This document shows, in pieces, positions 6,917-20,155 of a stretch of 25,600 bases of DNA (its first letter is position 1; every line of letters starts with the position of its first letter). A model generated the notes under the pieces. That model was not told the origin of the DNA and did no database searches. It saw only the letters and a program-made list of their open reading frames with translations. The translations under genes and the position numbers were made by a program. Origin of the DNA: a virus; the IMG/VR virus record IMGVR_UViG_3300047546_002090, positions 1-25,600 of that record. One strand, given 5' to 3'.

Positions 6917-7429
6917 ATGCCCGCAGCCGCTCAAATCCTCAAGAATTTCGCCATGTTCATCGACGGGCGCGTGTACGCTGGGAACGTCGATTCCGTGCAG
7001 CTCCCCGCCCTCACCCTCAAGCTCGAAGACTACCGGGCCGGGGGGATGGACGCGCCCGTGGCGCTCGATATGGGCATGGAGAAGATGGAAAGCACGATCA
7101 AGATGAGCAACTGGAACCGCGACGTGGCGGGCCTCTGGGGCGTCGGGCCGGGCTCTCCTAAAATGTTCGCCTTCCGGGGCGCGCTCGAATCGCTCAACGG
7201 CACCATCGAACCCGTGGAGGTAATGATGGAAGGCACGCTCGACGACATTCAGCACGACGACGTGACGCCCGGCGCAAAAGCGGGCGTGACGCTCAAGGTC
7301 AGCGTCCGGGCGTACCGCTACACGCAGAACGGGCAGGAGGTGCACAACATCGACGTCGTGAACATGAAGCGCGTCATCAACGGCGTGGACCGCCTCACTT
7401 CGATGCGCACCGCGCTCGGCTTGAACTAA
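6917..7429 (+). CDS. FII: Major tail tube protein (P2 FII-like)
   Basis: This 170-residue protein matches the P2 FII tube family. Signs are the start with ILKNFAMFIDGRVYAGNV, the LPALTLKLEDYRAGGMDAPV block and MEKMESTIKMSNWNRDVAGL, followed by a compact beta-rich C-terminus ending in a KRVINGVDR segment. The protein polymerises into the inner tube through which DNA passes. Length and order (directly after the sheath gene) are standard. The start at 6917 has no clear Shine-Dalgarno sequence, like most genes of this operon. Confidence 0.95.
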   Translation: MPAAAQILKNFAMFIDGRVYAGNVDSVQLPALTLKLEDYRAGGMDAPVALDMGMEKMESTIKMSNWNRDVAGLWGVGPGSPKMFAFRGALESLNGTIEPVEVMMEGTLDDIQHDDVTPGAKAGVTLKVSVRAYRYTQNGQEVHNIDVVNMKRVINGVDRLTSMRTALGLN

Positions 7430-7453: not shown

Positions 7454-7702
7454 ATGGCTCCTGATTACCTTGACGTACAGCTCGACCACCCCGTCACCAT
7501 CAACGGGGCGGTCGTGAGCACGCTCCGCGTTCGCAACCCCTCCGCCCGAGACGTGTTCTCGGCGCGGAAGGCGGCGGCAGACAAGGACACGCAGCAGCTC
7601 AACCTTCTCGCGTCCCTCACTGGATGGTCTCCCGACGACCTCCTCGAACTCCGCGCGGCTGACTTCGTGAAGGCTTCCGAGACGCTCGACAGTTTTTTTT
7701 AA
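7454..7702 (+). CDS. E: Tail assembly chaperone gpE
   Basis: The 82-residue product lies between the tail tube and tape measure genes, the place of the tail assembly chaperones in nearly all long-tailed phages. Its sequence (VRNPSARDVFSARKAAADKD, later LASLTGWSPDDLLELRAADF) fits the P2 gpE-type chaperone family (Phage_TAC_7). Such proteins coat the tape measure before tube polymerisation and are absent from the mature virion. The reading frame ends in a run of eight T residues directly before the TAA stop, and the overlapping -1 frame encodes an E'-like extension. A fraction of ribosomes is therefore expected to make a longer E-E' form. Confidence 0.88.
   Translation: MAPDYLDVQLDHPVTINGAVVSTLRVRNPSARDVFSARKAAADKDTQQLNLLASLTGWSPDDLLELRAADFVKASETLDSFF
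7693..7700 (+). promoter_or_regulatory. Probable -1 ribosomal frameshift site (T8 slippery run)
   Basis: The end of E reads AGT TTT TTT TAA in frame. Positions 7693-7699 form T-TTT-TTT, a valid slippery heptamer on which both tRNAs can re-pair after a -1 slip. The -1 frame then continues from TTA at 7699 to TGA at 7831-7833. P2 uses a T-rich -1 site at the same gene junction. No downstream pseudoknot was checked. Confidence 0.72.
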
Positions 7703-7833
7703 TGTCGGATGAGGAATGCCGCCGGGCCATCCTCTTCCTTGCAAACTTCACCGGATGGCCGCTCTCAGAATTGGAGCGGCTTTCTCTTTCCGAGCTTCGG
7801 GAATGGGTGGTGTTAGTGCCCAAGCCTCAGTGA
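7702..7833 (+). CDS. E': gpE' extension of the tail chaperone (made by -1 frameshift)
   Basis: The -1 frame entered after 7699 runs to the TGA at 7831-7833 and adds 44 residues to E, giving a fused product of about 126 residues. From the ATG at 7702 it would be 43 residues. The segment ILFLANFTGWPLSELERLSL followed by ELREW matches the short P2 GpE family pattern (a helix, then WP, then a second helix ending in E-W). The ATG at 7702 overlaps the E stop (TAATG), so restart is possible. There is no Shine-Dalgarno sequence before it, which favours frameshifting. It ends three bases before the tape measure start. Role: recruits tail tube subunits to the chaperone-coated tape measure. Confidence 0.75.
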   Translation: MSDEECRRAILFLANFTGWPLSELERLSLSELREWVVLVPKPQ

Positions 7834-7836
7834 TTT

Positions 7837-9765
7837 ATGGCCAACCGCAATTTCTCCGCCACCATTTCGATCGGCGCCAAACTTGAGCAGTCGTTCAAGG
7901 GCGTCTTTGGCGGGGTTAAACGGGACATCGAGGCGCTCGGGAAGAGCGTAGCGGCAGCCCGTGGCCAGCGGGATCTCATCTCTGGCGTGGTGGGGGCGCG
8001 CTCGCAGTTCTCCGCCGCCTCGCAGGCTCTCACCGAGGCGCAGGAATCCGTTGCGCTCTCCCGCAAGTTTGGCGACAAGGCGGACGTTCGAGCGTCGCAG
8101 AAACTCGAAGCCGCTGCGATGAAGCAGGCTCTCGCCGAGCGGCGGGCGCTGAACGAAATCACGGCCCACGCCAAGGCAGCCGGGATCAACGTCAAAAAGC
8201 TCACCGAGGAAGAGCGCAAGGCGACCGAGCAGCTCGGTAAGCTCGAAACGGAAATGCAGCGGCTTCAGCAGCGGAGCGACCGCATCGACTCCGTGGGGCG
8301 CGTGTTCCGTCGGGTTGGTGACGCCGCGCAGCACGTCGGGCAACGTTTCGGGCGGGCTGCGGAAGCATTCAGCGGCGCACGCAACCGGATGCTCCTCTTT
8401 ACGGCGGCGGCGACCGCTGCGGGATACGCGGTTTACAAGCTGACCAAGGGCTTCATCGACTCGGAAGACAGCCTGGGCGACACCGCTGAGGCGCTCAACA
8501 TCACGACGGGCAGCCTCAAACAATGGCAGGTGATGGCCGCCACCGTCGGGATCGGGGACGAGAAGCTCAACAAGTCGTTCGCCAAATTCTCGGCCTCCAT
8601 CGAGGAGGGCAGTGAGAAGACGATCAAGGTGCTCAACGAACTCGGCCTTTCCCAAGAGAAGCTGAAGGGGCTTCCGCTCGGGCAGCAAATCGCCATCATC
8701 GCGGACAAATTCAGAAACTACTCGGGGAAGATGAACCAAGCGGCGATGGTTCAGGCGCTCTTTGGTAAAGGGGCGACCAACCTTGCCACCGTGTTCCACA
8801 TGAGCCGGGCGGAGTTAGACGGATTCCTGGAACGCTCAAAAAAAATCGGGTACATCCTCGACAAAGAGGGGGTGCAAAAGGTGAGCGCGATGGCCGCCAG
8901 CATGGACACGCTGGACATCGCCCTCAAAGGCACGCGCAACACCATCGCGCTCGGGCTCGCCCCGGCGATCACCCGCGTCGGCGAAGCCATCACCAAGTTC
9001 CTCACTGAGCACAACGACGACATTCGGAAGTGGGCGACGGAGTTCGGGGAAACGCTCGAAAAGGAGCTTCTCCCGGCGGTGAAAGAGTTCCTCGTGGAGC
9101 TTCCCGGAATGGCTCAGAAATTCGGCGAGTTCGCCGGGGGCGTTTGGAAAGTTGTCACCGCAGTCAAAGACCTCATGGGCGGCTGGGGCGGGCTCGCGGC
9201 GGCTCTCACCATTGCCAACTTCACCCCCGTCTTCGCCGCGTTCGGTCCGTGGGGCCTCGCCGTTGAGGCGGTCGCCATTGCAGTCGTGGCGCTTTACAAC
9301 AACTGGGACAAAGTGCAGGCCAAGGTGGCCGAGTGGGGCAAGGCGACGGCGGACATCATCCGCGAGGTGGCGGGCGTCTTGAAAGAGGCGTGGGGACCGG
9401 CCTTCGACTGGATCGAGGCGAAATTCAAAGCGATCGGCGGCTTCATCAAGACTTGGGTGATCGACCCCTTCCTTTCGTTTGCGGACAAGCTCGAAAAGCT
9501 CATCCCGGACGTGAGCAAATACCTCCCGAGCGCCCCCACCGGCGCCTCAGGCGCTTACATGGGCATGGCCGGAGCGCCGGGCCTTGGGCTCATCTCGCAG
9601 GACCAAATGCGGCGGCTCACGCCGGGGGCAGGGACGATGAACAACAACGTCAGCGTCACGATCAACGCGCCGGGAGCCAACGGGGACGAAATCGCCAACA
9701 AACTCCGCGAGAATTTGCGGCGCAAGCCGCTCTTCGACCAGAACTACGTCCTCGCGCCCCAGTAG
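7837..9765 (+). CDS. T: Tail tape measure protein (gpT)
   Basis: The 642-residue protein is the tape measure by position after E/E' and by form. It has a long Ala/Glu/Lys-rich helical N-terminal half (residues 1-190, many coiled-coil heptads), a first hydrophobic segment near MLLFTAAATAAGYAVYKLTK (about 188-207) and a larger hydrophobic stretch near 450-485 (LAAALTIANFTPVFAAFGPW). A Trp/Lys-rich amphipathic region follows, and the C-terminus contains NNNVSVTINAPGANGDEIAN, a frequent ending in this family. The tape measure sets tail length and helps DNA cross the inner membrane. At 642 residues it is somewhat shorter than P2 gpT (about 815), suggesting a shorter tail. Confidence 0.93.
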   Translation: MANRNFSATISIGAKLEQSFKGVFGGVKRDIEALGKSVAAARGQRDLISGVVGARSQFSAASQALTEAQESVALSRKFGDKADVRASQKLEAAAMKQALAERRALNEITAHAKAAGINVKKLTEEERKATEQLGKLETEMQRLQQRSDRIDSVGRVFRRVGDAAQHVGQRFGRAAEAFSGARNRMLLFTAAATAAGYAVYKLTKGFIDSEDSLGDTAEALNITTGSLKQWQVMAATVGIGDEKLNKSFAKFSASIEEGSEKTIKVLNELGLSQEKLKGLPLGQQIAIIADKFRNYSGKMNQAAMVQALFGKGATNLATVFHMSRAELDGFLERSKKIGYILDKEGVQKVSAMAASMDTLDIALKGTRNTIALGLAPAITRVGEAITKFLTEHNDDIRKWATEFGETLEKELLPAVKEFLVELPGMAQKFGEFAGGVWKVVTAVKDLMGGWGGLAAALTIANFTPVFAAFGPWGLAVEAVAIAVVALYNNWDKVQAKVAEWGKATADIIREVAGVLKEAWGPAFDWIEAKFKAIGGFIKTWVIDPFLSFADKLEKLIPDVSKYLPSAPTGASGAYMGMAGAPGLGLISQDQMRRLTPGAGTMNNNVSVTINAPGANGDEIANKLRENLRRKPLFDQNYVLAPQ

Positions 9766-11198: not shown

Positions 11199-11569
11199 TG
11201 CCGGGGACGATGACAGAAGCGACCGGGGAAGAGGGCGACATGGCTCTCCTCTACCACGCCGCAGACGGGACCAACGCCCAGCAGGAGGCGGAATCGTGCG
11301 CCCGCCGGATCGAGCGCCGGGGTCGCGCTTTCGAGGTCGAAATGCCGGGGAACCCGGACGTGGCGGCTGGGATGAACATCACCCTTTACGGCTTCCGGGA
11401 CGGCGTGGACGGCGAATGGGTTGCCAAGATCGTCCGGCATCGAATATCACGGGACGGCTGGCGGACGGTGATTCAGGGCGAGGGCACTGACGGCGCTTTC
11501 CTCGCGCAGAAAGCCAAGCGGCTCGGAGGTGAGTTTCAGCCTCGGGCAAAGAGCACTCCAACCGAATAG
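11198..11569 (+). CDS. D: gpD, C-terminal part in the -1 frame
   Basis: Read from the ATG at 11198 this gives 123 residues that complete gpD. They contain LYHAADGTNAQQEAESCARR, the typical FEVEMPGNPDVAAGMNITLY block, GFRDGVDGEWVAKIVRH and a closing GWRTVIQGEG strand. The ATG overlaps the stop of the N-terminal frame and is preceded at 11183-11190 by GGAGGGGG, a good Shine-Dalgarno sequence seven to ten bases away; this is unusual in this SD-poor operon and supports a separate or re-initiated product. A -1 slip on the G run would instead join both parts into one protein of about 380 residues. It converges with the integrase, overlapping its 3' end by 34 bases. Confidence 0.8.
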   Translation: MPGTMTEATGEEGDMALLYHAADGTNAQQEAESCARRIERRGRAFEVEMPGNPDVAAGMNITLYGFRDGVDGEWVAKIVRHRISRDGWRTVIQGEGTDGAFLAQKAKRLGGEFQPRAKSTPTE

Positions 11570-12750
11570 CGGAATGTTTTGGATGGTTCTGGGCGGCGGT
11601 CTTCATCGCTGCGGACGATGGAGAGGATTGCACCTGACGCGCGCGCCGCGTTGCGGTGTTTCTCGCTTTGCGGCCCGTGAATGTATCGGGCAGCGGTCGC
11701 CATCTGGCGGTGGCCTAGGAGGTCAGCAACCTCCCGCTGGCTCGCCCCGGCGCGGTGAGCGAGAGAGCCGACCGTGTGGCGGATGTCGTGGAGGCGCACC
11801 TCGGGCCGGATCCGCGCGGCGGCTTTGAGGTTGCGCCACATCCTCTGGTGCCCCTCGATGGGGCCGCCATCACGCCCCGGCAGGACGAAGAGCGACGTGC
11901 GAGGCAACTCGGCCAGCAGCTCGACGACCTCGGGAGGAAGCGGCACGTCTCGCGCCCCCGTTTTGCTGCCTTCGTGCGGGATCCGCAGCCGGGCGTTTGG
12001 CAGGTCCACCCACGACCAGAGCGCGCGCCTCCACTCCCCGCAGCGGCAGCCGGTCAGGAGCAGCAGCCGGACGAGGGTGGCGAAGGACGGCATCCAACGG
12101 GGCGAGTCCAGCTCGGCCCAAAGGCGGGCAACCTCGTCGGGCTCCAGCAGCGTCTCCCGGGGGGCCTCGGGGAAGTCCTCGATGTCCTCGCACGGGTTCG
12201 AGTGCCGGGGGCGCATTCCCCACTTCTCGGCGAGGCGGAATGCCACCCGGAGCATTTCAAAAACCCGGTTGCAGTTCGTGGGGCGCGGCGCGAGCTTGCG
12301 GTGGAGGCGCAGGAGGTCAGCCTGGGCGATGTCTGCCACGGCGGGGTTCCCAAGCGCAGGCAGCACGTGCAGCCGCCACGCGATTTCGTAGTTTCGGGCC
12401 GTGCCCTTGCGCTTCTGGGCCGCGTGCTCGGCCATGAAGCGATCCCGCAGCTCCTCCAGCCGGGCCGCTTGGCGGCGCCGCGTCCGATCGGCTTTCGGGT
12501 CGCCCCCGGCCCGCACGGCTTTGAACGCCTCGCGGGCCATCTCGCGCGCCTCCTCGGGGTGCAGCTCCTCAGACGTCCCGAGGGTCAGCAGCCGCCCCGT
12601 CCCCGTGTGGGTTCGGTAGCGGACGACAAAGGACCGGCGCCCCGACTCCAAGACGCGCAGGCCGAAGCCGGGCAAGACTGCATCCCACGTGAACCCGACC
12701 GCAGCGGCTTCGACACTGCGGACGGTGAGTTTCTGGCGGCTTTCAGGCAA
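11536..12750 (-). CDS. int: Tyrosine recombinase integrase
   Basis: The 404-residue protein starts at the TTG at 12750. AAAGGAG lies seven bases upstream of it, while the in-frame ATG at 12798 has no ribosome binding site and would cause a 56-base overlap with the gene before it. An N-terminal DUF4102-like arm-binding domain (SRQKLTVRSVEAA, then LPGFGLRVLESGRRSFVVRY) is followed by a core-binding domain and the catalytic domain. Catalytic residues by this start are Arg236 (GCRCGEWRR), Lys263, His321 and Arg324 (LHDIRHT), His347 (LLGHRQ) and Tyr356 (ARYIH). It catalyses site-specific integration, here most likely into tRNA-Met at the core site near 13825-13874. It is the last gene of a - strand series and converges with D. 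Confidence 0.95.
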   Translation of the reverse strand: MPESRQKLTVRSVEAAAVGFTWDAVLPGFGLRVLESGRRSFVVRYRTHTGTGRLLTLGTSEELHPEEAREMAREAFKAVRAGGDPKADRTRRRQAARLEELRDRFMAEHAAQKRKGTARNYEIAWRLHVLPALGNPAVADIAQADLLRLHRKLAPRPTNCNRVFEMLRVAFRLAEKWGMRPRHSNPCEDIEDFPEAPRETLLEPDEVARLWAELDSPRWMPSFATLVRLLLLTGCRCGEWRRALWSWVDLPNARLRIPHEGSKTGARDVPLPPEVVELLAELPRTSLFVLPGRDGGPIEGHQRMWRNLKAAARIRPEVRLHDIRHTVGSLAHRAGASQREVADLLGHRQMATAARYIHGPQSEKHRNAARASGAILSIVRSDEDRRPEPSKTFRYSVGVLFARG

Positions 12751-13120
12751 CAGGGCTCTCCTTTGTTCCGTTCTGGATTCGAACCTTGCCGTCGGCATCA
12801 ATTTCGAAATCTACGCGGTCGCCGCAGGTTAGTCCGTGCGCCGTAACGATTGCGGCCCAAATACTTCCCGCATTTACGTTGGCAATTCGGCAAACTCTCT
12901 CTTCGTGCTTTGACGTGACTTTTACACCCAAGGGGGAAGCCCCTTGGCTTGGCGGGATGAACAGGCGGAATGCCTGCACCGTCTCGGCAGTGTTTCGGAT
13001 CACAGCGCGGGCTTCTTTGAGTTCAGCGCGGAGGCCGTGGATGGTTTCACGCAGGCTCTCGCAATCGGAGCCTTCGCAGCCATTGCCGCCACGGCATTTG
13101 CAAATGAGATTACGGCTCAT
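12743..13120 (-). CDS. Cys-rich N-terminus protein, unknown function
   Basis: The 125-residue product begins with four closely spaced cysteines (C7, C9, C15, C20), possibly a small metal-binding knuckle. A helical, coiled-coil-like stretch follows (about 22-50) and then a C-terminal part rich in beta strands (VDFEIDADGKVRIQNG). I do not recognise a family. The ATG has a strong ribosome binding site (AGGAGGTGG) located in the end of the upstream gene and overlaps that gene by four bases. Its own end overlaps the TTG start of the integrase by eight bases, so it could be co-expressed with int. Confidence 0.6.
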   Translation of the reverse strand: MSRNLICKCRGGNGCEGSDCESLRETIHGLRAELKEARAVIRNTAETVQAFRLFIPPSQGASPLGVKVTSKHEERVCRIANVNAGSIWAAIVTAHGLTCGDRVDFEIDADGKVRIQNGTKESPVA

Positions 13121-13305
13121 TCCACCACCTCCTGCGATTCAGCTTCATTCCCTACCGGCACAAGCACCTCAATCAATCGCTTCTCCTTGCCGTCAATAAA
13201 TCCCACCCCAGCCCCTTTTAAAGCAGCTCCATTTGGTAAAGCCGCAGCCAATTTCATAAGGTCATTTACAGAAATGCCTCCGATTATCGTAAACATAACC
13301 CTCAT
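13117..13305 (-). CDS. Small protein, unknown function
   Basis: This is a 62-residue protein with a hydrophobic start (MRVMFTIIGGISVNDLMKLA) and an otherwise mixed alpha/beta composition (GVGFIDGKEKRLIEVLVPVG). The N-terminus is not a convincing membrane segment. Both ends show four-base ATGA overlaps with the neighbouring genes, and the ribosome binding site AGGAGGTGG precedes the ATG, which supports real translation. No family is recognised; the position between integrase and att core is the only context. Confidence 0.55.
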   Translation of the reverse strand: MRVMFTIIGGISVNDLMKLAAALPNGAALKGAGVGFIDGKEKRLIEVLVPVGNEAESQEVVE

Positions 13306-13703
13306 TTCGCCACCTCCTCTTTGGATGCGGCTATCAAGGCGTCGGCTTGAGCAAGCGCAACATCCTCATTTGTTGCCAATTCTGGGTTTGCACAACCTCC
13401 AGCCAGTAACATCGCCGCAATCTCCAGCCGCGATGGCTCGGGTCTTGCAACCATCGCGCTGATCTTTTCTTTGCGATGATCCGCAACTTTTTTCCAGTGC
13501 TTCCATTCGCCTTCGGCGTTTCTTAGCTCGGCTTTGAGCTTCACCACCTCAGCGCGCGCTTCGTCGCGGTCATCCTCAGCTTTTGAACGTGCAACGAGGA
13601 GCATTGCGGAAAATGCCTCTTCGTGTGCGAGTTTCGCTTTCAGCTGCTCAATCGTTGCGCGCGCTGTATGCGGGCAGGTTTCGGTGTTTTGGTGTTCGCT
13701 CAT
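13302..13703 (-). CDS. Coiled-coil protein, unknown function
   Basis: The start chosen is the ATG at 13703 (MSEHQNTETCPHTARATIEQ), giving 133 residues; an upstream extension would read into the att region. Residues 18-90 are strongly helical and charged with heptad character (LKAKLAHEEAFSAMLL, EVVKLKAELRNAEGEWKHWK), so a coiled coil is likely. The remainder is Ala-rich and also helical. There is no recognised domain. It is the first gene to the left of the att core, and an arm-type repeat copy at 13703-13711 overlaps its start codon. An integrase- or host-factor-bound att region would therefore sit on its promoter. Confidence 0.6.
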   Translation of the reverse strand: MSEHQNTETCPHTARATIEQLKAKLAHEEAFSAMLLVARSKAEDDRDEARAEVVKLKAELRNAEGEWKHWKKVADHRKEKISAMVARPEPSRLEIAAMLLAGGCANPELATNEDVALAQADALIAASKEEVAK

Positions 13704-13778
13704 TGTGCGCAGTTGGGGTTCATTGTCCGCAAACGCCCGCAATGGGGCGCAAGCGGCTCGGGTTCAGTTTCTTAGGTT

Positions 13779-13794
13779 TTGCAACGGGTTGCAA
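13779..13794. repeat. Inverted repeat TTGCAA-CGGG-TTGCAA
   Basis: A 16-base perfect inverted repeat with a four-base spacer lies 31 bases from the att core and upstream of the gene starting at 13703. It may be a binding site for an accessory factor such as the excisionase or a regulator. Its half-sites differ from the CTTGC-N4-GCAAG operators on the right side. Flanking it, GGGGCGCAA occurs twice (13744-13752 and 13796-13804). Confidence 0.5.
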
Positions 13795-13824
13795 GGGGGC
13801 GCAATCGCGCTCAATCGGATACCT

Positions 13825-13874
13825 TCAGGCTCATAACCTGAAGGTCACAGGTTCAAATCCTGTCCCCGCAACCA
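13825..13874 (+). other. att core: 3' half of a tRNA-Met(CAU) gene
   Basis: The segment folds as the 3' half of a tRNA: anticodon stem TCAGG/CCTGA with loop CTCATAA (anticodon CAT at 13832-13834), variable loop AGGTC, T arm ACAGG-TTCAAAT-CCTGT, acceptor strand CCCCGCA, discriminator A and encoded CCA (13872-13874). The CCCCGCAACCA end resembles initiator tRNA-fMet. No matching 5' half (expected acceptor strand around GCGGGG and a D arm) exists upstream, so it is not a complete gene. Phage integrases often use exactly this part of a tRNA gene as crossover region; integration would restore the host tRNA. Confidence 0.82.
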
Positions 13875-13888
13875 ACAATATCAGGCAC

Positions 13889-14131
13889 TTAGGTCGGTTC
13901 CGCCCTCGGGGGCGGCTCTGCCTTGTCCGCAGGTTGTCCGCAAAAATGGCGCGGAAGATATTCGATTTCCCAAGTCGGGTGAAACACCCCACGGCTGCCC
14001 TCGCTGGAAACGGCGCGGATGCAATCTCCTTTGGAGCTTGTCACGCGGAAGATAATGCGCCCCATGAAGAGAAATTCCGCCCCCCTGTAAGCTGGCACCC
14101 CATACGTTTTGCGAATGTAAGCAAGACTCAC
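13889..14131 (-). CDS. Small phage protein with YIRKTYGVPA start, unknown function
   Basis: An 80-residue protein from the GTG at 14131, which overlaps the stop of the preceding gene (GTGA) and has GTGAGGTG as ribosome binding site. The start SLAYIRKTYGVPAYRGAEFL and the later FHPTWEIEYL pattern recur in small phage proteins of 60-80 residues that I know only as hypothetical; the fold is likely a small beta barrel. The Pro-rich C-terminus runs over two attP arm repeats, so the tail of the protein may be constrained by the DNA signal. Function is unknown. Confidence 0.65.
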   Translation of the reverse strand: MSLAYIRKTYGVPAYRGAEFLFMGRIIFRVTSSKGDCIRAVSSEGSRGVFHPTWEIEYLPRHFCGQPADKAEPPPRAEPT

Positions 14132-14472
14132 GGATACACCTCACTTTCGAGTTTATGAACGCGGCGCCGCCATTGGTCTATAAGGTCAGAATTGAAAGGC
14201 GTGTTACACATCGAAAGCAGCTCCATTGCTTCCTCAAGTTGTCGTTTTAGTGCCTTGTACTCCTTTGGCTCCTGCGCCATCAGCGCTGCCTCCAACTCAA
14301 TAGAATACGTCTGCAACTCAGCAACTCGCGCCTTCAACCCGTCCAGTCGGCGAATGAGCGCAAGGATGCTCGGGGGTTCCGGCGGGAGCTTGCTTCCAAC
14401 GACATCAACCACCGAGGTCAGCGTTGGCAGCGCGCCCCAGAAGCCGTCGGGGTTCACAGGTTGGTCGCTCAT
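14128..14472 (-). CDS. Helical protein, unknown function
   Basis: The ATG at 14472 is chosen because it overlaps the preceding stop (ATGA) and has GGAG eight bases upstream; a longer reading would run through the previous gene. The 114 residues have an unstructured start (MSDQPVNPDGFWGALPTLTS) and a long helical region from about 40 (ILALIRRLDGLKARVAELQT) with coiled-coil character, ending in WRRRVHKLESEVYP. No domain is recognised. It belongs to the overlapping - strand gene series. Confidence 0.55.
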   Translation of the reverse strand: MSDQPVNPDGFWGALPTLTSVVDVVGSKLPPEPPSILALIRRLDGLKARVAELQTYSIELEAALMAQEPKEYKALKRQLEEAMELLSMCNTPFNSDLIDQWRRRVHKLESEVYP

Positions 14473-14621
14473 TTCGGGCACTCCGGGTTGAGGCACACAA
14501 ACACCCCTCCGCAAACGTAGGGCCGCCCGTTTTCGCCGACTTCAACGTCCGGCTCCTCCGTCATCACCCACCCGCAAACCACGCACTCTTCCTCGTCGAT
14601 TTCTTTTTGTGGGTCGTTCAT
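14469..14621 (-). CDS. Small zinc-ribbon-like protein
   Basis: A 50-residue frame with four-base overlaps at both ends. Cysteines C13-x2-C16 (ECVVCGW) and C43-x4-C48 (VCLNPEC), plus C37, suggest a zinc ribbon or knuckle; the rest is acidic (KEIDEEE, TEEPDVEVGENG). The ATG has the strong ribosome binding site GAGGAGGTGG. Small phage zinc ribbons of this sort are common and mostly unassigned. Protein or nucleic acid binding is plausible but not shown. Confidence 0.6.
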   Translation of the reverse strand: MNDPQKEIDEEECVVCGWVMTEEPDVEVGENGRPYVCGGVFVCLNPECPK

Positions 14622-14908
14622 TGCGCCACCTCCTCGTCTTCTTCTTCGTTGGTTATGAGTTCGGCCACGACCTCAACCTCTTGCCCGTCAAACCGGTCTC
14701 CGGTGTTGAATTTCGCCGTCCAAACGTGTTTGGAAAACGAGTTCTTGAGAGTCCAATCCGCGATCGATCGAACACAGTCGTCAGGGCGCTCGGTTTCCTT
14801 GCGCTTGAACAGCCGCCTTATTCTCAAAAAAAGGAAGACATGGACGCCCGCAGAGGCGACCCCAATAACGCCCGCACCGATTACAACAAGCGAATCAGGT
14901 TGGTTCAC
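14618..14908 (-). CDS. Single-span membrane protein, unknown function
   Basis: The GTG at 14908 is the best start: it overlaps the preceding stop (GTGA) and GGAAGGAGG stands just upstream; a longer frame upstream is the antisense-like second reading of the neighbouring gene. The 96 residues have a hydrophobic segment after a short polar start (about residues 7-28, VVIGAGVIGVASAGVHVFLF), a basic stop-transfer RIRRLFKRKE, and a soluble C-terminal domain rich in acidic residues ending EEEDEEVAQ. Topology is probably N-out with a cytoplasmic domain. No family is recognised. Confidence 0.6.
   Translation of the reverse strand: MNQPDSLVVIGAGVIGVASAGVHVFLFLRIRRLFKRKETERPDDCVRSIADWTLKNSFSKHVWTAKFNTGDRFDGQEVEVVAELITNEEEDEEVAQ
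14619..14634 (-). repeat. Gene-junction repeat carrying an RBS and ATGA overlap
   Basis: Read on the - strand this is AGGAGGTGGCGCAATG. It encodes the end of the upstream protein (EVAQ, stop), carries the ribosome binding site and gives the start of the next gene. The same 16 bases occur at 15593-15608, and near copies at 13303-13318 and 13118-13133. Confidence 0.75.
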
Positions 14909-15333
14909 TTGGCCTCCTTCCCCTTCTGCCGTTCGGCTTCCATCCACTCCATGGCGGTGACGCGCGCGGAGGCTTCGTCGAGCGCCAGCACAGAAGGCCA
15001 CCCCAACTCTTGGAACACCCACACCCGAGCATCTTTTGCGTCGGCTTTGCATTCGATCCCAGGAGCAGCGACTTGCCAGTTTTTCGCGCCCCAATCCGGG
15101 GCAACCGGTTTGGCCTCGACGACCGTTTCCTTTTTCCCGTGCTCGTTGAGCATTTGAGCCCGGAACGATTTCACGGCTCCAACAAACTCAGCCGCGCTCT
15201 CCACGCATTCGACGCACAGCGCATGCACGTCTTTCTGTCCTGGAGACCAATTTGAGATAAACAACCGTGTCGCTACTACCTCGGCTGATTCAAGTAGAGC
15301 AAGCAGCTCTTGTTTGCTTTTGACCTTAGACAT
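14905..15333 (-). CDS. Helical soluble protein, unknown function
   Basis: The start at 15333 (MSKVKSKQELLALLESAEVV) overlaps the preceding gene by eight bases and gives 142 residues. The first half is helical with a C-x2-C pair (HALCVECVES). The second half includes IECKADAKDARVWVFQELGW and ends in a very charged helix AEREKGK-like tail. It has no signal peptide and no membrane segment. I recognise no domain; codon use is like its neighbours. Its 3' end provides the ribosome binding site for the membrane protein gene that follows. Confidence 0.55.
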   Translation of the reverse strand: MSKVKSKQELLALLESAEVVATRLFISNWSPGQKDVHALCVECVESAAEFVGAVKSFRAQMLNEHGKKETVVEAKPVAPDWGAKNWQVAAPGIECKADAKDARVWVFQELGWPSVLALDEASARVTAMEWMEAERQKGKEAK

Positions 15334-15595
15334 AAAGCTTAGGGCCTTCGGTGTAGGTTGGTTTCTCGGGCACAATCGGGACGATTGAGCGCAGGTTTCG
15401 GATGGTTTCTTGTTTTACGGCAGCGCAGCCGCTCAGGAAGAGCGCCGCGAATAGGATGATGATGGATTTCATGCGGTCTAATTTTCTAAGCTCCAGCCAA
15501 TAGGCGATTGAAAAGACGGTGATGCCTATGCAAGCAACCGGAATGACTACGCAGGCGCGCAGGGTTTCTTTCACCACGGACAAGGCGCGCTTCAT
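15326..15595 (-). CDS. Membrane protein with embedded lipoprotein sequence
   Basis: From the ATG at 15595 (strong RBS AAAGGAGG seven bases upstream) the product has 89 residues. Residues 1-41 contain one membrane segment (about 14-33, ACVVIPVACIGITVFSIAYW). At residue 42, in the same frame, begins a second complete lipoprotein-like sequence: MKSIIILFAALFLSGC has a classic n-region, h-region and LSGC lipobox. A 48-residue lipoprotein from the ATG at 15472 is thus possible, but its RBS is poor (GGAG about 18 bases away). Either two genes fused by loss of a stop, or nested starts. A membrane/lipoprotein pair recalls spanins, though it lies far from the holin-like gene. Confidence 0.55.
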   Translation of the reverse strand: MKRALSVVKETLRACVVIPVACIGITVFSIAYWLELRKLDRMKSIIILFAALFLSGCAAVKQETIRNLRSIVPIVPEKPTYTEGPKLYV

Positions 15596-15819
15596 TGCGC
15601 CACCTCCTTTGCGGCCTCCTCGCGCTTTTTCTTGCGCAGGTAATGTCCGACCCTCAGCGGAAGGCTCGCTTGTTCGATTTCGATAAACCGTTTGGTCCAT
15701 TCGTCCGAAGTCGGGACTTGGAAACATAGGTTAACCAATTCGCTCAGGTAGCCAGCGAGTTCGTCTCGCTCAGCCTCGATTTGTCGCGCAAAAAGCGCGG
15801 ATACGGTTTCGTTTGTCAT
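15592..15819 (-). CDS. Small charged protein, unknown function
   Basis: The 75-residue protein starts at the ATG at 15819, directly after the stop of the upstream zinc-ribbon gene, and overlaps the next gene by four bases. It is helical, with an acidic first half (ALFARQIEAERDELAGYLSE) and a basic end (RKKKREEAAKEVAQ). The EVAQ ending is dictated by the shared junction repeat. No family is recognised and there is no membrane segment. Confidence 0.55.
   Translation of the reverse strand: MTNETVSALFARQIEAERDELAGYLSELVNLCFQVPTSDEWTKRFIEIEQASLPLRVGHYLRKKKREEAAKEVAQ
15593..15608 (-). repeat. Gene-junction repeat, second identical copy
   Basis: Identical over 16 bases to 14619-14634 and related to 13303-13318 (two differences) and 13118-13133. 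It again combines the EVAQ-coding end of one gene, an AGGAGG ribosome binding site and the ATGA overlap with the next. Confidence 0.75.
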
Positions 15820-16191
15820 TCAGTCTTCTTTGGTTACGCGGCGCCATACTTTGCAGGCAATGGCACCGCAGGTGATTTGGTCTTTTCTCTGCATCGCAAA
15901 AGTCTTCCCGCAGCCACCGCAAACCTGCGGGGACTTCATGAGTTCGGACGTGTAAGCGTCGTGGCATTCGAAGCAAAGCTTCCGCCGCCCGCCCCCAGCG
16001 AAAACTCGCCCGCATTTGCACTCGGTCGGAACCGGGGCGTTCGCGGGGCGGCTGTATTTCCCGGACGCCTCCTCGGCCAGCAGCGCGGCGTGGAATTCCT
16101 CGGCGAGGGAAACGGCGCGCTTCGCCGTCCCACGCTGCGGCGCCACCCGGTGAATGTAGGTGGGTTTCCCGTTGAGAAGGGCGATGTTCAT
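15820..16191 (-). CDS. Double zinc-ribbon protein, unknown function
   Basis: The 123-residue product has a basic N-terminal half (PTYIHRVAPQRGTAKRAVSL) and two Cys4 sites: C58-x-C60 with C73-x2-C76, and C91-x2-C94 with C108-x4-C113. Such paired ribbons occur in DNA- or RNA-binding proteins; the segment SLAEEFHAALLAEEASGKY is helical. The start overlaps the stop of the upstream coiled-coil gene (ATGA). There is no clear ribosome binding site, so expression probably depends on coupling. Nucleic acid binding is inferred from the cysteines only. Confidence 0.65.
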   Translation of the reverse strand: MNIALLNGKPTYIHRVAPQRGTAKRAVSLAEEFHAALLAEEASGKYSRPANAPVPTECKCGRVFAGGGRRKLCFECHDAYTSELMKSPQVCGGCGKTFAMQRKDQITCGAIACKVWRRVTKED

Positions 16192-16934
16192 TTTGTGACT
16201 TTGAGCTTTTCCACCACTCGGATCCCAGGCAGCCCGACCACGTGCCCGGCGTCGCGCATCCGTTTCAGTTCGGAGAGGATGGCCGCCCTCCTTGGGGTCA
16301 GCTCCACGAGCATTGGCGCGATCTCATAGAGGAGCCGGAGGTCCTCAATCTCGAAGTCCAACTCGGCCTTCACCCCTGAGACTGCCGGGGCCGTGAACCG
16401 CGTGGCCTCCTCGGCGGCGGCGGCACGCGCGGCAGCTTGGGCGGCGGCAGCTTGCGCGGCCTCCTGAGCCTGCTTCTCCCGAGCCGTGCGGGCTTCCTCG
16501 GCAGCAATCCGGCGGGCCTCCTCGGCGGCGGCGCGGGCCTTGGCCTCGGCCTCCCGGCGGGCGGCCTCGGCGGCTTCCCGGCGCTTTCGCTCCTCCTCGG
16601 CGGCGTAGGACGTCACCAGCCCGGTCAACCGCTTTTCCTCCTGGGCAGCATCGCCGCCGAATGATTTCGCCGCGTCGTCGATCTTTTTCCCCAGCTCCAG
16701 GAGCGGAGCTTTCACGGCCTTCCGCGATTCCTCCAGCCGGTTCCGGAAGCTCGCGAGGTCGCGGATCACCTCGCGAATGGTGACCGACTCGGCGGCGTTG
16801 GTGCAGACCTGCAGCTCGTCCGCCCGATCGAGGAGCGTCTCGCGCAGCTCAATGGCGGCGCGGTTAGCGGTCAGGCCGAAACCGTCGCCGGTGAGTTTGA
16901 AAACAGTGAGTTCAGTGTTTGGTGTGGGTGTCAT
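16188..16934 (-). CDS. Long coiled-coil phage protein next to recombination genes
   Basis: The 248-residue protein has an N-terminal helical part (ETLLDRADELQVCTNAAESV, then KAVKAPLLELGKKIDDAAKS), a very Ala/Glu/Arg-rich central helix at about 105-180 that must be a long coiled coil, and a compact C-terminal domain (LLYEIAPMLVELTPRRAAIL to HVVGLPGIRVVEKLKV). Proteins of this build are frequent in phage recombination regions near single-strand annealing proteins; no enzymatic motif is present. I infer a scaffolding or DNA-transaction role. The start at 16934 overlaps the upstream gene by 23 bases and lacks an RBS, so a slightly different start is possible. Confidence 0.7.
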   Translation of the reverse strand: MTPTPNTELTVFKLTGDGFGLTANRAAIELRETLLDRADELQVCTNAAESVTIREVIRDLASFRNRLEESRKAVKAPLLELGKKIDDAAKSFGGDAAQEEKRLTGLVTSYAAEEERKRREAAEAARREAEAKARAAAEEARRIAAEEARTAREKQAQEAAQAAAAQAAARAAAAEEATRFTAPAVSGVKAELDFEIEDLRLLYEIAPMLVELTPRRAAILSELKRMRDAGHVVGLPGIRVVEKLKVTK

Positions 16935-17124
16935 GGTTTGTGATTTTGTAGTGGTCTGCAGTCAGCCCGAAAGTTTTTGCGGCGGCTCGGGCCTCATCCG
17001 CCGTCTCAAAGCGGGTGCACGCCACCCGGTCCTTTGCGCTCACCCATGCGTCCCGCTGGCGGGGGCCGAAGCCCTCCACGATCAGGAAACAGCCGGTTTC
17101 CCGGTGCTGGATGGTGAACGCCAT
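16912..17124 (-). CDS. Small alpha/beta protein, unknown function
   Basis: The start at 17124 (MAFTIQHRETGCFLIVEGFG) gives 70 residues; it sits in a TGATG stop-start overlap with the upstream membrane protein gene. The pattern beta-beta-helix (FTIQH, FLIVEGFG, then FETADEARAAAKTFGL) resembles small phage proteins of unknown function that contain an F-x-T-x-x-E-A-x-x-x-A block. It has no cysteine motif and no membrane segment. The 3' end overlaps the coiled-coil gene by 23 bases. Confidence 0.6.
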   Translation of the reverse strand: MAFTIQHRETGCFLIVEGFGPRQRDAWVSAKDRVACTRFETADEARAAAKTFGLTADHYKITNHDTHTKH

Positions 17125-17381
17125 CACCGCAGCGATTTCAGGAGCTTCACTGCGCCCAAGAGGGAGCAAAGCCCCAAGATGTAAAGCCCAAGGCCGACCC
17201 CCTCGGGAAGGCCGGCAAACTTGGCGAGAAGCACGTCGGCGGCAAAAAAGCCGACAAGAATGCAGGCCAGCCCAAAGGTGAACCGCATACGACTGCGGCG
17301 GACGTTTCGTGCCTCGATGCCAAGGCGCTCGTGGGCGGGGAGTGTGGGGCGAAGAACGCCCTTGGAAGTAGTGAATTTCAT
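17124..17381 (-). CDS. Two-span membrane protein, unknown function
   Basis: The ATG at 17381 gives 85 residues; longer readings would run through the end of the preceding gene and the hairpin. A basic amphipathic N-terminus (RLGIEARNVRRSRMR) is followed by two hydrophobic segments, about 33-52 (FTFGLACILVGFFAADVLLA) and 60-80 (GVGLGLYILGLCSLLGAVKL), and a short basic tail. It probably sits in the inner membrane with both ends in the cytoplasm. Phage membrane proteins in early regions often act in superinfection exclusion, but nothing here shows that. Confidence 0.55.
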   Translation of the reverse strand: MKFTTSKGVLRPTLPAHERLGIEARNVRRSRMRFTFGLACILVGFFAADVLLAKFAGLPEGVGLGLYILGLCSLLGAVKLLKSLR

Positions 17382-17395
17382 GGGTTTGGAAAGGT

Positions 17396-17415
17396 GCGCC
17401 TCCCGGAGGAGGCGC
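17396..17415 (-). other. Stable hairpin with UNCG-type tetraloop
   Basis: On the - strand the bases read GCGCCTCC-TCCG-GGAGGCGC, an eight-pair perfect stem with a C(UCCG)G loop of the extra-stable UNCG class. It lies between the stop of the gene ending at 17423 and the start at 17381. No T run follows, so it is not a typical terminator. It may shield the transcript end or affect translation of the membrane protein gene. Confidence 0.6.
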
Positions 17416-17422
17416 GGGTTGC

Positions 17423-17608
17423 TTAGGCTTCGATCATCCCGCCTTCTTCTTCCGGGCCGTACATTTCGACCATCATGGCCACGCGATCCTGCCATGGTGT
17501 AGAGGCAAACGCCTCCTCGGTGTCGTGGCCGTCAATGTCAACATACGTGCGCCAGAGGTTCAAACTTTGAGCGATTTCGGTGTAAGTGGGCTTGGTGTTG
17601 TTGTTCAT
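17423..17608 (-). CDS. Small acidic protein under a predicted operator
   Basis: The 61-residue product opens MNNNTKPTYTEIAQSLNLWR and ends in an acidic stretch (EMYGPEEEGGMIEA). It is soluble with no cysteine motif, and I recognise no family. It is the first gene of the left-going series after the terminator at 17695-17729. A perfect 16-base inverted repeat lies 12 bases upstream of its ATG, so it probably has its own promoter and is controlled by the same protein as the gene at 22118. No Shine-Dalgarno sequence is visible. Confidence 0.55.
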   Translation of the reverse strand: MNNNTKPTYTEIAQSLNLWRTYVDIDGHDTEEAFASTPWQDRVAMMVEMYGPEEEGGMIEA

Positions 17609-17620
17609 AACGGGGTGAAT

Positions 17621-17636
17621 GCTTGCAAATGCAAGC
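17621..17636. promoter_or_regulatory. Operator, CTTGC-N4-GCAAG class
   Basis: GCTTGCAAATGCAAGC is a perfect inverted repeat (GCTTGCA, two bases, TGCAAGC). It is identical, on the other strand, to 22078-22093, and shares CTTGC-N4-GCAAG with sites at 20120-20133 and 20141-20154. The position just upstream of the start at 17608 suggests repression. Confidence 0.7.
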
Positions 17637-17694
17637 GCCCGAGGAAAGCAGAAAATTCTCTTTTCGCGCATTTTGTTCGCAAGTCCCTCGGGCT

Positions 17695-17729
17695 GAAAAG
17701 AAAAGCGCCCCCCGAAAATCGAGGGGCGC
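17695..17729 (-). terminator. Rho-independent terminator of the recombination unit
   Basis: On the - strand a stem GCGCCCC (17729-17723) pairs with GGGGCGC (17711-17705) around an 11-base loop and is followed by TTTTCTTTTC. It lies six bases after the stop of the HTH gene at 17736 and should end the transcript coming from the RecE/RecT genes. Confidence 0.8.
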
Positions 17730-17735
17730 TGTACT

Positions 17736-17936
17736 TTACCGCGAGTTTTTCTTTTCGTACTCTTCCACACCCGCCAGAGGGTAAAGCACTTTCCCGCCCA
17801 CTTTTACGTAGGGCGGTCCTTGCCTCCGACTCCGCCACGTGGTGAGGGTTGCGAGTTTGATTTCCTGTCTCCAGCGCTCCAACAGCTCGTTTTGCGTCAG
17901 GTATTTTTTTGATGGGTCAGTCCCACTCGTTTGCAT
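17736..17936 (-). CDS. HTH_17-type DNA-binding protein, possible excisionase
   Basis: From the ATG at 17936 (GAGGGAG six bases upstream) the product has 66 residues. The core KYLTQNELLERWRQEIKLAT, then LTTWRSRRQGPPYVKVGGKV, then LYPLAGVEEYE is the pattern of the MerR-like winged-helix HTH_17 / excisionase family. Such small proteins bend or bind DNA; in temperate phages they often act as Xis with the integrase or as regulators. It overlaps the end of recT by 20 bases and is the last gene before the terminator. Choice between excisionase and regulator cannot be made from sequence; distance to attP is about 4 kb. Confidence 0.75.
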   Translation of the reverse strand: MQTSGTDPSKKYLTQNELLERWRQEIKLATLTTWRSRRQGPPYVKVGGKVLYPLAGVEEYEKKNSR

Positions 17937-18849
17937 TTGCTCCCTCTTGAGCGGGTTCGTTTGCGGGGGCAGTTTTTGTTGGCGTTGGCAGCAACTCCGC
18001 ATCCACTTCAGGAGCGGGGGCCGAGGCTCTTCTCCGCGTTCTGGGCGCGGGTGGGGGGAGCACTTCTTGCGCAGGCTCAGAGGGCTCCGAAGGGGCCGAA
18101 GGCTCGGTAGCCTGCGGCGAACTGGGGGCGGATTGGATCGACGCGTTGAGCGCGTCCACGGCGGAGGATTTGACCGAAACCGGCGTCACGTCGATCGTGC
18201 CGGCGTCCTCGACCTCCTCGGCGGCGTGCATCCCGTTGAGCACGTCGGGCGCGTAGAGCCTACCGAAGAACGCGGCGGCACGGTAACGGCCCATGAGGTC
18301 CGGCATCGTCTGCCATTTCGAGCCTGGCTTCGTCCACCAGCCCTCGCGGACGGCGGTCTCAAATGATACCGGCGGCCCTTCGAGCACCTCGCCGGTCGCC
18401 TTGTCGTATGCCCACGCCACGAACTGGGCGTTGCGTTTCAGCTCGGTGCTTTCGGTTTTGAACTGGCGCTTGTTCTCCCGCTTGTCCCACCACGACCGCT
18501 CAGAAACGACCGTCTGGGGCCCGAGTTCTTCGACTCGGAAGCGTAGCGGGGAGAATCTCCCGCAGGCGTTGAGCGCCGCGATGATGAACGAGGAAGACCA
18601 CGAGGGGCGGCCCTCGATGATATGAAGGCTTTGCATCACGGCGAGCGGACTCGCTCCGATCCGCTGGGCCATCTCCAGCGCGATGAGGGCGTTCCCGATT
18701 TTCTCCCCGCGATAAGCTTCGGGGACGAGGTCCGAAGAGCACAGGCACCGGGCCATGCGCTGGGCCGCCTCAAAGGCGTCCAAGTTGGCAAATGGGCTTA
18801 GGGCCGACGACGTAGACGGGTTGTGGATTGCTAGGGTGTTGTCACTCAT
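17917..18849 (-). CDS. recT: RecT-family single-strand annealing protein
   Basis: The 310-residue protein matches the RecT family: CSSDLVPEAYRGEKIGNALI, ALEMAQRIGASPLAVMQSLH, IIEGRPSWSSSFIIAALNAC, and later AFVA-like and PDLMGRYRAAAFFGRLYAPD blocks. The annealing domain covers about residues 1-210. Residues 215-310 form an Ala/Pro/Ser/Glu-rich, probably disordered tail. RecT anneals complementary single strands after resection and mediates phage recombination. The RecE-like nuclease gene lies 15 bases upstream, giving the usual exonuclease-annealase pair. The start at 18849 has no clear Shine-Dalgarno sequence. The long tail is longer than in typical RecT. Confidence 0.92.
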   Translation of the reverse strand: MSDNTLAIHNPSTSSALSPFANLDAFEAAQRMARCLCSSDLVPEAYRGEKIGNALIALEMAQRIGASPLAVMQSLHIIEGRPSWSSSFIIAALNACGRFSPLRFRVEELGPQTVVSERSWWDKRENKRQFKTESTELKRNAQFVAWAYDKATGEVLEGPPVSFETAVREGWWTKPGSKWQTMPDLMGRYRAAAFFGRLYAPDVLNGMHAAEEVEDAGTIDVTPVSVKSSAVDALNASIQSAPSSPQATEPSAPSEPSEPAQEVLPPPAPRTRRRASAPAPEVDAELLPTPTKTAPANEPAQEGANANEWD

Positions 18850-18864
18850 TGGTTGTTCTTGGTT

Positions 18865-19683
18865 TTAGTTTTGGTTTTTCAATGCCCACGCGGGCAGGGA
18901 AAGGGGTTGGATTGTGGGCGGGTACCCCGGCCACGTGTCGGTCTCCAGGCATCGAGCAAAAGTCCGCAAATCCGCGCGGTACTCCTCACGCCCTTTGCTC
19001 AAAAAAATGTCATCCGCTGCGTATACTGCTGTCAAATAGGGCGGTTCTTTCTCCACGGCGATGAAGGAGAATACCTCTATGTCTGCGTCATTCCGGCGCA
19101 GGCCGTCGAGGTACATGGCAGCCTGGACGTGGTAGCGGTACGTGGCGCAGGAGCGGGCAAACGCCGCCGGGCTCGCGTCCTCCGTTGTCTTGAGGTCCGC
19201 CACAATCCCCCGGCACGTCACCGAATCGGGACGCCCCCGGCATAGGATCCCGGTTTCCTCGTCCTCCCAGAAGACGCTTTGCTGAAACTCCGCGTCTCCG
19301 GTCAGGAGCGCCCGAGCGGCAGGGTGCGCAAGCAGGGACTCGCGTTGTCCGCAGAGGGCTTCCCACTCGGAAGCCGTCACCGGCTCGCGCCCTTGGCTCT
19401 CCACCTCGGCAACAAACTCCTTCCAAGCTTTCTGTTGCTTGGACGTGATGGCGGCAGGGGCCGGGCAAACTACGTGCTCGGCGCCGTCGAACATCAGCGA
19501 ATCGAGCAGCGTCCCCCAACGGAGGGCGGCGGTCCGCTCGCGCTCCGGGTTGGCCAGCTTCCATTTGTAACGGGCCGGGGCGACGTGCAGCTCGTCGAGC
19601 CAGTGCTTCGAGATTGCGGAGCGATCCGCGTGGTATTGCGCAGCCGGAAGGCCGCGCACGATTCGGTTGGGTGTCGTTGTCAT
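18865..19683 (-). CDS. RecE-like PD-(D/E)XK exonuclease
   Basis: The 272-residue product fits the RecE C-terminal nuclease / YqaJ-like group. An N-terminal block ISKHWLDELHVAPARYKWKL (the iS..L..i..sP pattern) is followed by LRWGTLLDSLMFDGAEH. The catalytic region has ILCRGRPDSV with Asp153, IVADLKTTEDASP with Asp163 and Lys165, and the YRYHVQAAMYLDGL motif (Gln187). These enzymes digest 5' strands of duplex DNA to create 3' overhangs for RecT. It overlaps the upstream gene by four bases (ATGA) and is followed directly by recT. Length is typical for phage-encoded RecE-like nucleases. Confidence 0.88.
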   Translation of the reverse strand: MTTTPNRIVRGLPAAQYHADRSAISKHWLDELHVAPARYKWKLANPERERTAALRWGTLLDSLMFDGAEHVVCPAPAAITSKQQKAWKEFVAEVESQGREPVTASEWEALCGQRESLLAHPAARALLTGDAEFQQSVFWEDEETGILCRGRPDSVTCRGIVADLKTTEDASPAAFARSCATYRYHVQAAMYLDGLRRNDADIEVFSFIAVEKEPPYLTAVYAADDIFLSKGREEYRADLRTFARCLETDTWPGYPPTIQPLSLPAWALKNQN

Positions 19684-19991
19684 GCTTGGGAAAGGTAAGG
19701 GGCGACACGCTCCCAGTGGGAGCGGGTGAACTCGCGCAGGTGCCCGACGGGGCCGCCATGCCAGATCCGCACGGCGTCCTCAGGGGTTGGCATCCGCCCC
19801 AGCATCGAGGGCCGGGTGAAATGCGAAAGGTACAACCTCCCGAGCGCCCGAGCTTTCACCGGGTGAGCCAGGTCAGAGGTTTTCCACCGCGTTCCATACG
19901 TGGCGTTGAGCATCGTGATGTATTTCTCCCCGACCGTCAGCGTCCCGCCGTTGGCCCGAGCGATGGCGTCCAGAATTGCGTCGATGTCCAT
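19680..19991 (-). CDS. Short lysozyme-superfamily-like protein (tentative)
   Basis: The ATG at 19991 has a strong ribosome binding site (GGGAGGA five bases away), giving 103 residues. The C-terminal part, EDAVRIWHGGPVGHLREFTR followed by SHWERVAPYL, resembles the C-terminal RI-x-(N/H)-GGP-x-G block of small phage lysozyme-like or transglycosylase-like proteins. I do not see the usual E-x-x-x-ALGPYQI catalytic block before it, so enzyme activity is doubtful. It is the first gene of the left-going recombination unit, overlapping the RecE-like gene by four bases. It may have another role on this fold. Confidence that it is a gene is high, function low. Confidence 0.6.
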   Translation of the reverse strand: MDIDAILDAIARANGGTLTVGEKYITMLNATYGTRWKTSDLAHPVKARALGRLYLSHFTRPSMLGRMPTPEDAVRIWHGGPVGHLREFTRSHWERVAPYLSQA

Positions 19992-20119
19992 CCGTGTCCT
20001 CCCGCTGCGAATCAGCGCAACGGGCCGCATGGCAGCGCGGGAGAACCTTCGGCGGAAGGCGGAGTGTGCGGATTCTTGCGGCTTCATGCGGGGGCTTGAG
20101 CAACTTTGCATTGCGTTTC

Positions 20120-20133
20120 CTTGCAAAAGCAAG
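20120..20133. promoter_or_regulatory. Operator O1 in the divergent control region
   Basis: CTTGCAAAAGCAAG is a perfect inverted repeat with half-sites CTTGC and GCAAG and a four-base spacer, the same geometry as 17621-17636 and 22078-22093. It lies 21 bases, two helical turns, from O2. The surrounding 164-base gap (19992-20155) should hold the divergent promoters of the recombination unit and the HTH-helicase unit; I could not fix the -10 and -35 boxes. Confidence 0.7.
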
Positions 20134-20140
20134 AAAAAAA

Positions 20141-20154
20141 CTTACGCTTGCAAG
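20141..20154. promoter_or_regulatory. Operator O2 adjoining the HTH gene start
   Basis: CTTACGCTTGCAAG matches CTTGC-N4-GCAAG with one mismatch in the left half, and ends one base before the ATG at 20156. The inner GCTTGCAAGC (20146-20155) is also a perfect palindrome. Binding here would block transcription or early translation of the HTH gene, suggesting autoregulation. Confidence 0.6.
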
Positions 20155-20155
20155 C

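Follow-up and report, generated by a model that had tools for sequence, protein, structure and literature searches.

We analysed a complete virus record of 25,600 bases, hereafter called the window, in which the short tail gene E is followed in the -1 frame by a second coding stretch, E'. The question raised by this locus is how E' is translated. The initial annotation proposed a programmed -1 frameshift and named a restart at TAATG as the alternative. We consider it very probable that the locus is a P2-type E/E+E' junction, at which the longer form, E+E', would be made by -1 slippage on T TTT TTT. The phenomenon as such is already known, as an E/E' frameshift has been published for P2 and predicted in relatives. 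The features discussed below are listed in Table 1.

Table 1. Features at and around the E/E' junction, in positions of the window.
Feature	Position	Strand	Remarks
Tail tube FII	6917..7429	+	PF04985, 6.2e-51
Gene E, tail assembly chaperone	7454..7702	+	82 aa, ends FF-TAA; PF10109 Phage_TAC_7, phrog_166; between FII and tape measure
Putative slippery heptamer T TTT TTT	7693..7699	+	In phase with E, directly 5' of the E stop
T8 run	7693..7700	+	Heptamer plus the T of TAA
Predicted -1 extension E'	7699..7833	+	L + 43 aa = 44 aa, GpE-like; stop TGA at 7831-7833
TAATG	7700..7704	+	Overlap of the E stop with a potential E' start; alternative restart site
Predicted RNA hairpins 3' of the site	7703-7743 and 7753-7785	+	Possible stimulator
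Tape measure protein (T)	7837..9765	+	phrog_8462, 3e-26, tail length tape measure

The genes around the site are ordered FI (sheath), FII (tube), E, E', T (tape measure), U (GpU), X (tail protein X) and D (GpD), and baseplate J-like and Tail_P2_I proteins are encoded upstream of the tail genes. Judged by its gene content, the site belongs to a P2-type tail operon. The product of E matches PF10109 Phage_TAC_7 with an E-value of 8.1e-15 and 55.1 bits (cutoff 25). The genes are tightly packed, with stop-start overlaps: several neighbours are separated by 3 bases or share 4, and the baseplate J-like and Tail_P2_I genes also meet in a TAATG, at 1181-1185. Further along the plus strand, from approximately 11200 to 20300, the sole listed open reading frame of more than 205 aa is 11755-12846 (363 aa), the product of which is without a PHROG or Pfam match. 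A helicase is encoded at 20334 and a primase-like gene lies at 22863. On the minus strand, the open reading frames reach 421 aa.

In the E frame, bases 7690-7704 read C AGT TTT TTT TAATG, with the E stop TAA at 7700-7702. The run of eight T's and the phase of T-TTT-TTT described in the initial annotation are thus borne out by the coordinates. After the heptamer, the -1 codons are TTA ATG TCG, and this frame stays open until its TGA; upstream it opens 37 nt back inside E. The 44-residue -1 extension does end 3 bases short of the tape measure start, as had been stated. Its GpE label is borderline: PF06528 Phage_P2_GpE matches E' at 1.5e-4 and 21.7 bits, just below the cutoff of 23, and phrog_6416 matches at 4.6e-4. 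The peptide DSFFLMSDEE, put forward for detection across the junction, is indeed what the -1 reading gives, with DSFF from E and LMSDEE from E'.

At a GC content of 61.7%, the window contains two T runs of at least 7 bases, against a mean of 0.24 in mononucleotide shuffles (0.03 for runs of at least 8). It also has five A runs of at least 7, and a long run by itself therefore proves nothing. Among the 3545 codons of 15 tail-region open reading frames there are six in-phase X XXY YYZ heptamers, of which the one at the junction alone abuts a stop. Phe is encoded by TTC 76 times and by TTT 26 times in ten genes, and the slippery site is TTT TTT.

To place the site among its relatives, we collected loci via FII, U, sheath and tape measure in five scans of viral contigs and one scan of genome contigs. 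The best 80 matches were used from two FII scans and the sheath scan, so that the set leans to closer relatives. The main set of 271 loci includes the window and its copy L001, which count as one junction, and three named phage loci; P2 was left out. E' lies in the -1 frame in 207 loci, which comprise 169 distinct junctions in 92 clusters and 38 duplicates, and in the +1 frame in 18. In the remainder, no E' was found (28), no E was found (14), E was cut off (3) or FII was missing (1). An earlier set of 192 loci held 129 distinct and 22 duplicate -1 junctions, 18 in +1, 14 loci with no E', 6 with no E and 3 with E cut. Clusters were formed by single linkage at 80% identity over at least 150 bases, with one representative counted per cluster. 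Heptamers were sought in the E/E' overlap, at most in the last 75 bases of E. The close clade of the window consists of the window and three other contigs, L002, L003 and L004, with FII 92-98% identical. A distant blastn search against phage records gave one match of 71 bases, and tblastn with E matched two records.

The in-phase heptamer is kept in all four clade sequences, as T TTT TTT in three and T TTT TTC in one. The junctions of L002 and L004 read T TTT TTT TGATG, and that of L003, with six T's, reads T TTT TTC TAATG. An in-phase N NNT TTN is present in 146 of the 169 distinct -1 junctions (77 of 92 clusters), and T TTT TTN in 112 (59 clusters). The same pattern in the other two phases is found in 29 and 8 of the 169 junctions, counts to which T runs of more than 7 bases contribute through frame-shifted readings. 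In the earlier set, 58 of 68 clusters have the heptamer. Across 200 synonymous shuffles, on average 13.5 and never more than 21 clusters had it, and 200 codon-order shuffles averaged 0.8 with at most 4. The retention of the T run, which had been proposed as a check, is therefore found both in the clade and in most of the wider set. The claim that this is the conserved tail frameshift of long-tailed phages is supported by the domains, the operon order, the 146 junctions and the published P2 shift. A chance origin of the site is ruled out by phase, conservation and shuffles.

The heptamers of the 59 T TTT TTN representatives end in G (28), T (14), C (11) or A (6), and a further 18 representatives have a non-T6 heptamer alone, for example GGGTTTT. 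The conserved feature, as read from these alignments, is thus the tandem re-pairing pattern. No N NNT TTN heptamer occurs in the searched zone of 23 of the 169 junctions (15 of 92 clusters), and these are a true exception. Several of the heptamer-less sites in the earlier set read CTT TTT ACA or GGG TTT ATG and fall outside the simple rule. The heptamer abuts the E stop in 10 of the 169 junctions, the window among them, and termination would there compete directly with slippage.

The tape measure gene of the window carries a run of eight A's at 8838-8845 that gives an in-phase A AAA AAA, with the -1 frame open over the 40 codons read. This heptamer is kept in one of three other clade contigs (it is absent from L269 and L004; L003 and L270 are one contig). 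On this comparison it is a non-conserved contrast to the E/E' heptamer.

E and E' were never found in the same frame among the 187 distinct junctions, 169 in -1 and 18 in +1, under a counting rule that would skip a same-frame E' beginning before the end of the E match. The arrangement that the initial annotation had named as speaking against a frameshift was thus looked for. The 28 loci with E and without E' gave no same-frame E' match either, and their frames run at most 26 codons past the E match; they do not appear to be fused. In such loci, for example L014 and L022-L029, E' is lost or too diverged for detection by profile; two of the 28 stop within 41 bases of the E stop.

Within the clade, third positions of the -1 frame account for 19 of the 27 variable columns of E' and for 63 of 87 pairwise differences, and dS is higher than dN in all six pairs. 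These substitution patterns show that E' evolves as a protein and that the -1 frame is under protein-level selection. Nine residues are invariant in 12 aligned E': R8, L11, L13, A14, T17, G18, W19, E23 and W35.

We suggest that most ribosomes terminate E at TAA. In a minority, tRNA-Phe in the P and A sites would slip back one base on T TTT TTT, and the slipped ribosomes would read on through TTA ATG and produce E+E' of 126 aa. Some free E' may perhaps also be made via restart at the overlapping ATG. Ribosome slippage at the window site, and likewise its rate, is inferred. By analogy with gpG and gpGT of lambda, E and E+E' would serve the tape measure and the tube as tail assembly chaperones.

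The main alternative is translational coupling, in which E ends at TAA and translation restarts at the overlapping ATG (7702-7704), giving a free E' of 43 aa and no fusion. The window's E' does have this possible start of its own. TAATG or TGATG is present in all four clade sequences, and 9 of the 169 distinct junctions combine the E stop with an ATG in this way. The initial annotation had discounted a restart for lack of a ribosome binding site. A Shine-Dalgarno sequence is truly absent, but this is uninformative: 17 of the 18 starts tested in the window, that of E' included and a few of them belonging to open reading frames with unknown function, have no match of at least 4 bases located 4-20 bases upstream. 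The same test on the FII starts of cluster representatives gave a match at 67 of 91. With 17 of 18 starts lacking the sequence, and a second TAATG pair at 1181-1185, the absent binding site is no argument against restart. The host may not rely on Shine-Dalgarno sites, and restart without them may be ordinary in this phage, where close gene spacing is likewise compatible with coupling. The frameshift is favoured on other grounds: the heptamer is in phase and conserved, 47 of 92 cluster representatives have neither ATG nor GTG nor TTG in the -1 frame ahead of the E' match, and the start is lost in L200. This last sequence belongs to a second cluster, in which L199, L201 and L204 read T TTT TTC TGATG; L200 has the same layout with TGATA, that is ATA for ATG, and keeps the heptamer. 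The Met is also not a shared residue of the 12 aligned E' outside the window's clade. We therefore find coupling without a fusion very unlikely. That both routes operate, with frameshifting giving E+E' and restart giving free E', so that the same 11 bases yield three products, is unlikely too, at a lesser degree. The stop-start counts, the starts without Shine-Dalgarno and the pair at 1181-1185 count here as well. In addition, T TTT TTY TRATG is fused in all four clade sequences though the stop varies between TAA and TGA, and the fused layout recurs in three of the four members of the second cluster. However, these sequences are few and related, ATG has no synonym and its retention could reflect the Met residue alone, the ATG is lost in L200, and a start for a free E' is absent from approximately half of the cluster representatives.

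Homopolymers are error-prone in sequencing and assembly, and the T8 run is such a sequence. An error that split one gene in two is nevertheless hardly credible, as the separate contigs L002, L003 and L004 have the same frame relation, one of them without T8, and the distinct junctions contain no one-frame relative; we reject it. RNA polymerase could instead slip on the T8 run, adding a base that would join E and E' in a single frame in part of the transcripts, and eight consecutive T's in a record of this GC content are in line with such a route. Against it stand clade member L003, with six T's and then a C, the 45 of 59 T6N representatives ending in G, C or A, and the 18 others without a T6 heptamer. 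The L003 junction and the non-T7 heptamers of relatives disfavour transcriptional slippage as the main route, and we regard it as highly improbable.

Predicted RNA structure 3' of the heptamer is weak evidence for a downstream stimulator, and we do not claim one. The 91 bases after the site fold with z-scores of -3.5, -3.1, -3.8 and -2.45 in the four clade members relative to dinucleotide shuffles, the window having -3.5; bases 7706-7766 alone give -1.0. The 91-base fold beats 432 of 434 control segments along the tail genes and equals the other 2, of which one lies next to the site, at 7844. When the null preserves codons, the clade z-scores are -3.5, -3.64, -2.8 and -2.05, and with a larger codon pool -2.56, -2.94, -2.21 and -1.36. 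Under the codon-preserving null, the near hairpin scores -1.9 in the window and -2.2, -1.2 and +0.1 in L002, L003 and L004, respectively. The far hairpin, which begins 53 bases after the heptamer, scores -2.0 to -2.6 in all four. This strong, GC-rich hairpin lies within E' and has a T-rich stretch behind it; it may act as a stimulator or as a partial terminator, or be a product of chance. Among the relatives, the 85 nt after the site have a mean z of -1.52 (n=57) against dinucleotide shuffles, and six other offsets (n=56-57) give -0.12 to -0.48. With the codon-preserving null, the effect becomes smaller, with a mean of -0.94 (n=77) and 15 below -2, and seven control places give -0.12 to -0.66. 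A rank test of the relatives' fold against 537 pooled controls, which are not independent, gave p=2e-4, and a paired test against one control place gave p=0.06.

In 18 distinct junctions from 6 clusters (L093, L095-L099 and L102-L113), E' lies in +1. These contigs are assigned to Pseudomonas, Burkholderia, Ralstonia, Trinickia, Pseudoduganella and Burkholderiaceae. Each of the 18 overlaps has exactly one in-frame TTT, followed by CGN in every case, and two read TCC TTT CGA. In the -1 group, TTT CGN is found in the overlap of 2 of 169 junctions. Redrawing of the Phe codons in 1000 trials never gave 6 of 6 clusters (mean 2.2, maximum 5), and codon-order shuffles gave TTT CGN in a mean of 0.3 and at most 3 of the +1 clusters. 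Compared by eye, the TTT (in YFRL or YFRV) stands at the position of the slippery Phe codon of the -1 group in 16 of 18. Passages of two published accounts describe UUU_Ynn as a sequence that favours +1 shifting and give UCC_UUU_CGU as the site of influenza PA-X (PMC5009743, PMC3498833). These sequences suggest that one branch of the E/E' relatives changed its shift direction from -1 to +1. Restart could also account for this group, and start codons are present in the +1 frame of most of its members. A -2 shift would give the same frame as +1, and -2 shifting is known from phage Mu, as described in part of PMC5009743. A +1 shift between E and E' at TTT CGN is not named in the titles and abstract parts of a small literature sample.

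The extension E' resembles the C-terminal part of E. Alignment of E with E' by hhalign, from separate alignments of 92 sequences each, gave a probability of 78%, an E-value of 1.9e-5 and a score of 24.6. The highest score in 100 column shuffles was 12.2, a reversed profile scored 11.9, and split halves of the data scored 24.4 and 24.2. The aligned stretch pairs LLASLTGWSPDDLLELRAADF with LFLANFTGWPLSELERLSLSEL, and the stretches of the window that are alike are 7583-7672 in E and 7714-7803 in E'. Of the 12 aligned E', Phage_TAC_7 matches four at an E-value of at most 0.1 (best 0.0023), DUF6760 four and GpE three at the same limit. The AlphaFold2 models, made separately, have helices at 44-56, 60-63 and 68-80 in E and at 3-17, 21-25 and 29-38 in E', in the same order and with similar spacing. 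E' is thus likely, but not proven, to be a second copy of the C-terminal helices of E, with E+E' carrying the module twice; short helical repeats can look alike without common descent, which leaves the latter unproven. No significant hit came from searching PDB sequences with E, fold searches yielded none at an E-value of at most 0.001, and the model of E compared insignificantly with the HK97 chaperone 2ob9 (E=0.83). In the part of the literature searched, no paper treats E' as a repeat of E by title or abstract.

Taken further, we speculate that the recoding element has been rebuilt repeatedly around a constant product, E plus a diverged copy of its own C-terminal helices. Site, stop and restart codon are fused in the window's clade and in a second cluster, where three products would be possible, and the switch from -1 to +1 would have occurred with UUU_CGN in Pseudomonas, Burkholderia and Ralstonia relatives. 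This wider proposal is tentative, and we hold it to be rather doubtful. If true, selection would keep the ratio of one-copy to two-copy chaperone and not the sequence of the switch. The locus itself adds a P2-type lineage, in which gene starts are mostly without Shine-Dalgarno sequences, to those with a conserved tail frameshift. It is also a warning that a missing ribosome binding site is poor evidence for frameshifting in genomes with few such starts.

The closest described system is phage P2. An excerpt of PMC3091744 describes a frameshift at TTTTTTG that yields E (91 aa) and E+E' (142 aa), and the P2 record annotates E (276 bases), the joined E+E' and the -1 site, where T TTT TTG is in phase. 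The window resembles P2 in gene order around E, in its chaperone families and, by prediction, in a -1 shift on a T-rich heptamer that is in phase. In both, the open frame of E' reaches 37 nt back into E, the P2 value being taken from a passage of PMC3931495. The title of the Phage_TAC_7 family names E; it was the window's E that was scanned against this family, with P2's E left out. A pairwise BLAST of the two E proteins is weak, with 33% identity over 24 aa. In P2, six sense codons separate the heptamer from the stop and E' overlaps T, whereas in the window the heptamer touches the stop and E' stops before T. The window also has an ATG overlapping the E stop. Hairpins are predicted 3' of the window site, whereas their absence in P2 is cited in the available part of PMC3091744. 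P2 E' has a possible GUG start according to part of PMC3931495, and the lack of an own start in E' is thus no strict requirement.

The same kind of site has been predicted in phages of other hosts, which we liken to the window by their published descriptions. In the Burkholderia P2-like phages KS5, KS14 and KL3, a TTTTTTG site was predicted, and no hairpin was found as far as the relevant passages of PMC3091744 report. In the Stenotrophomonas phage Smp131, an excerpt of PMC3931495 gives a predicted T7G site, with T7C in related prophages. Phage lambda offers an analogy, with no claim of membership: as outlined in part of PMC5009743, a -1 shift near the end of chaperone gene G produces the minor extended form gpGT, and gpG and gpGT are needed at approximately 30:1 and link the tape measure and the tube.
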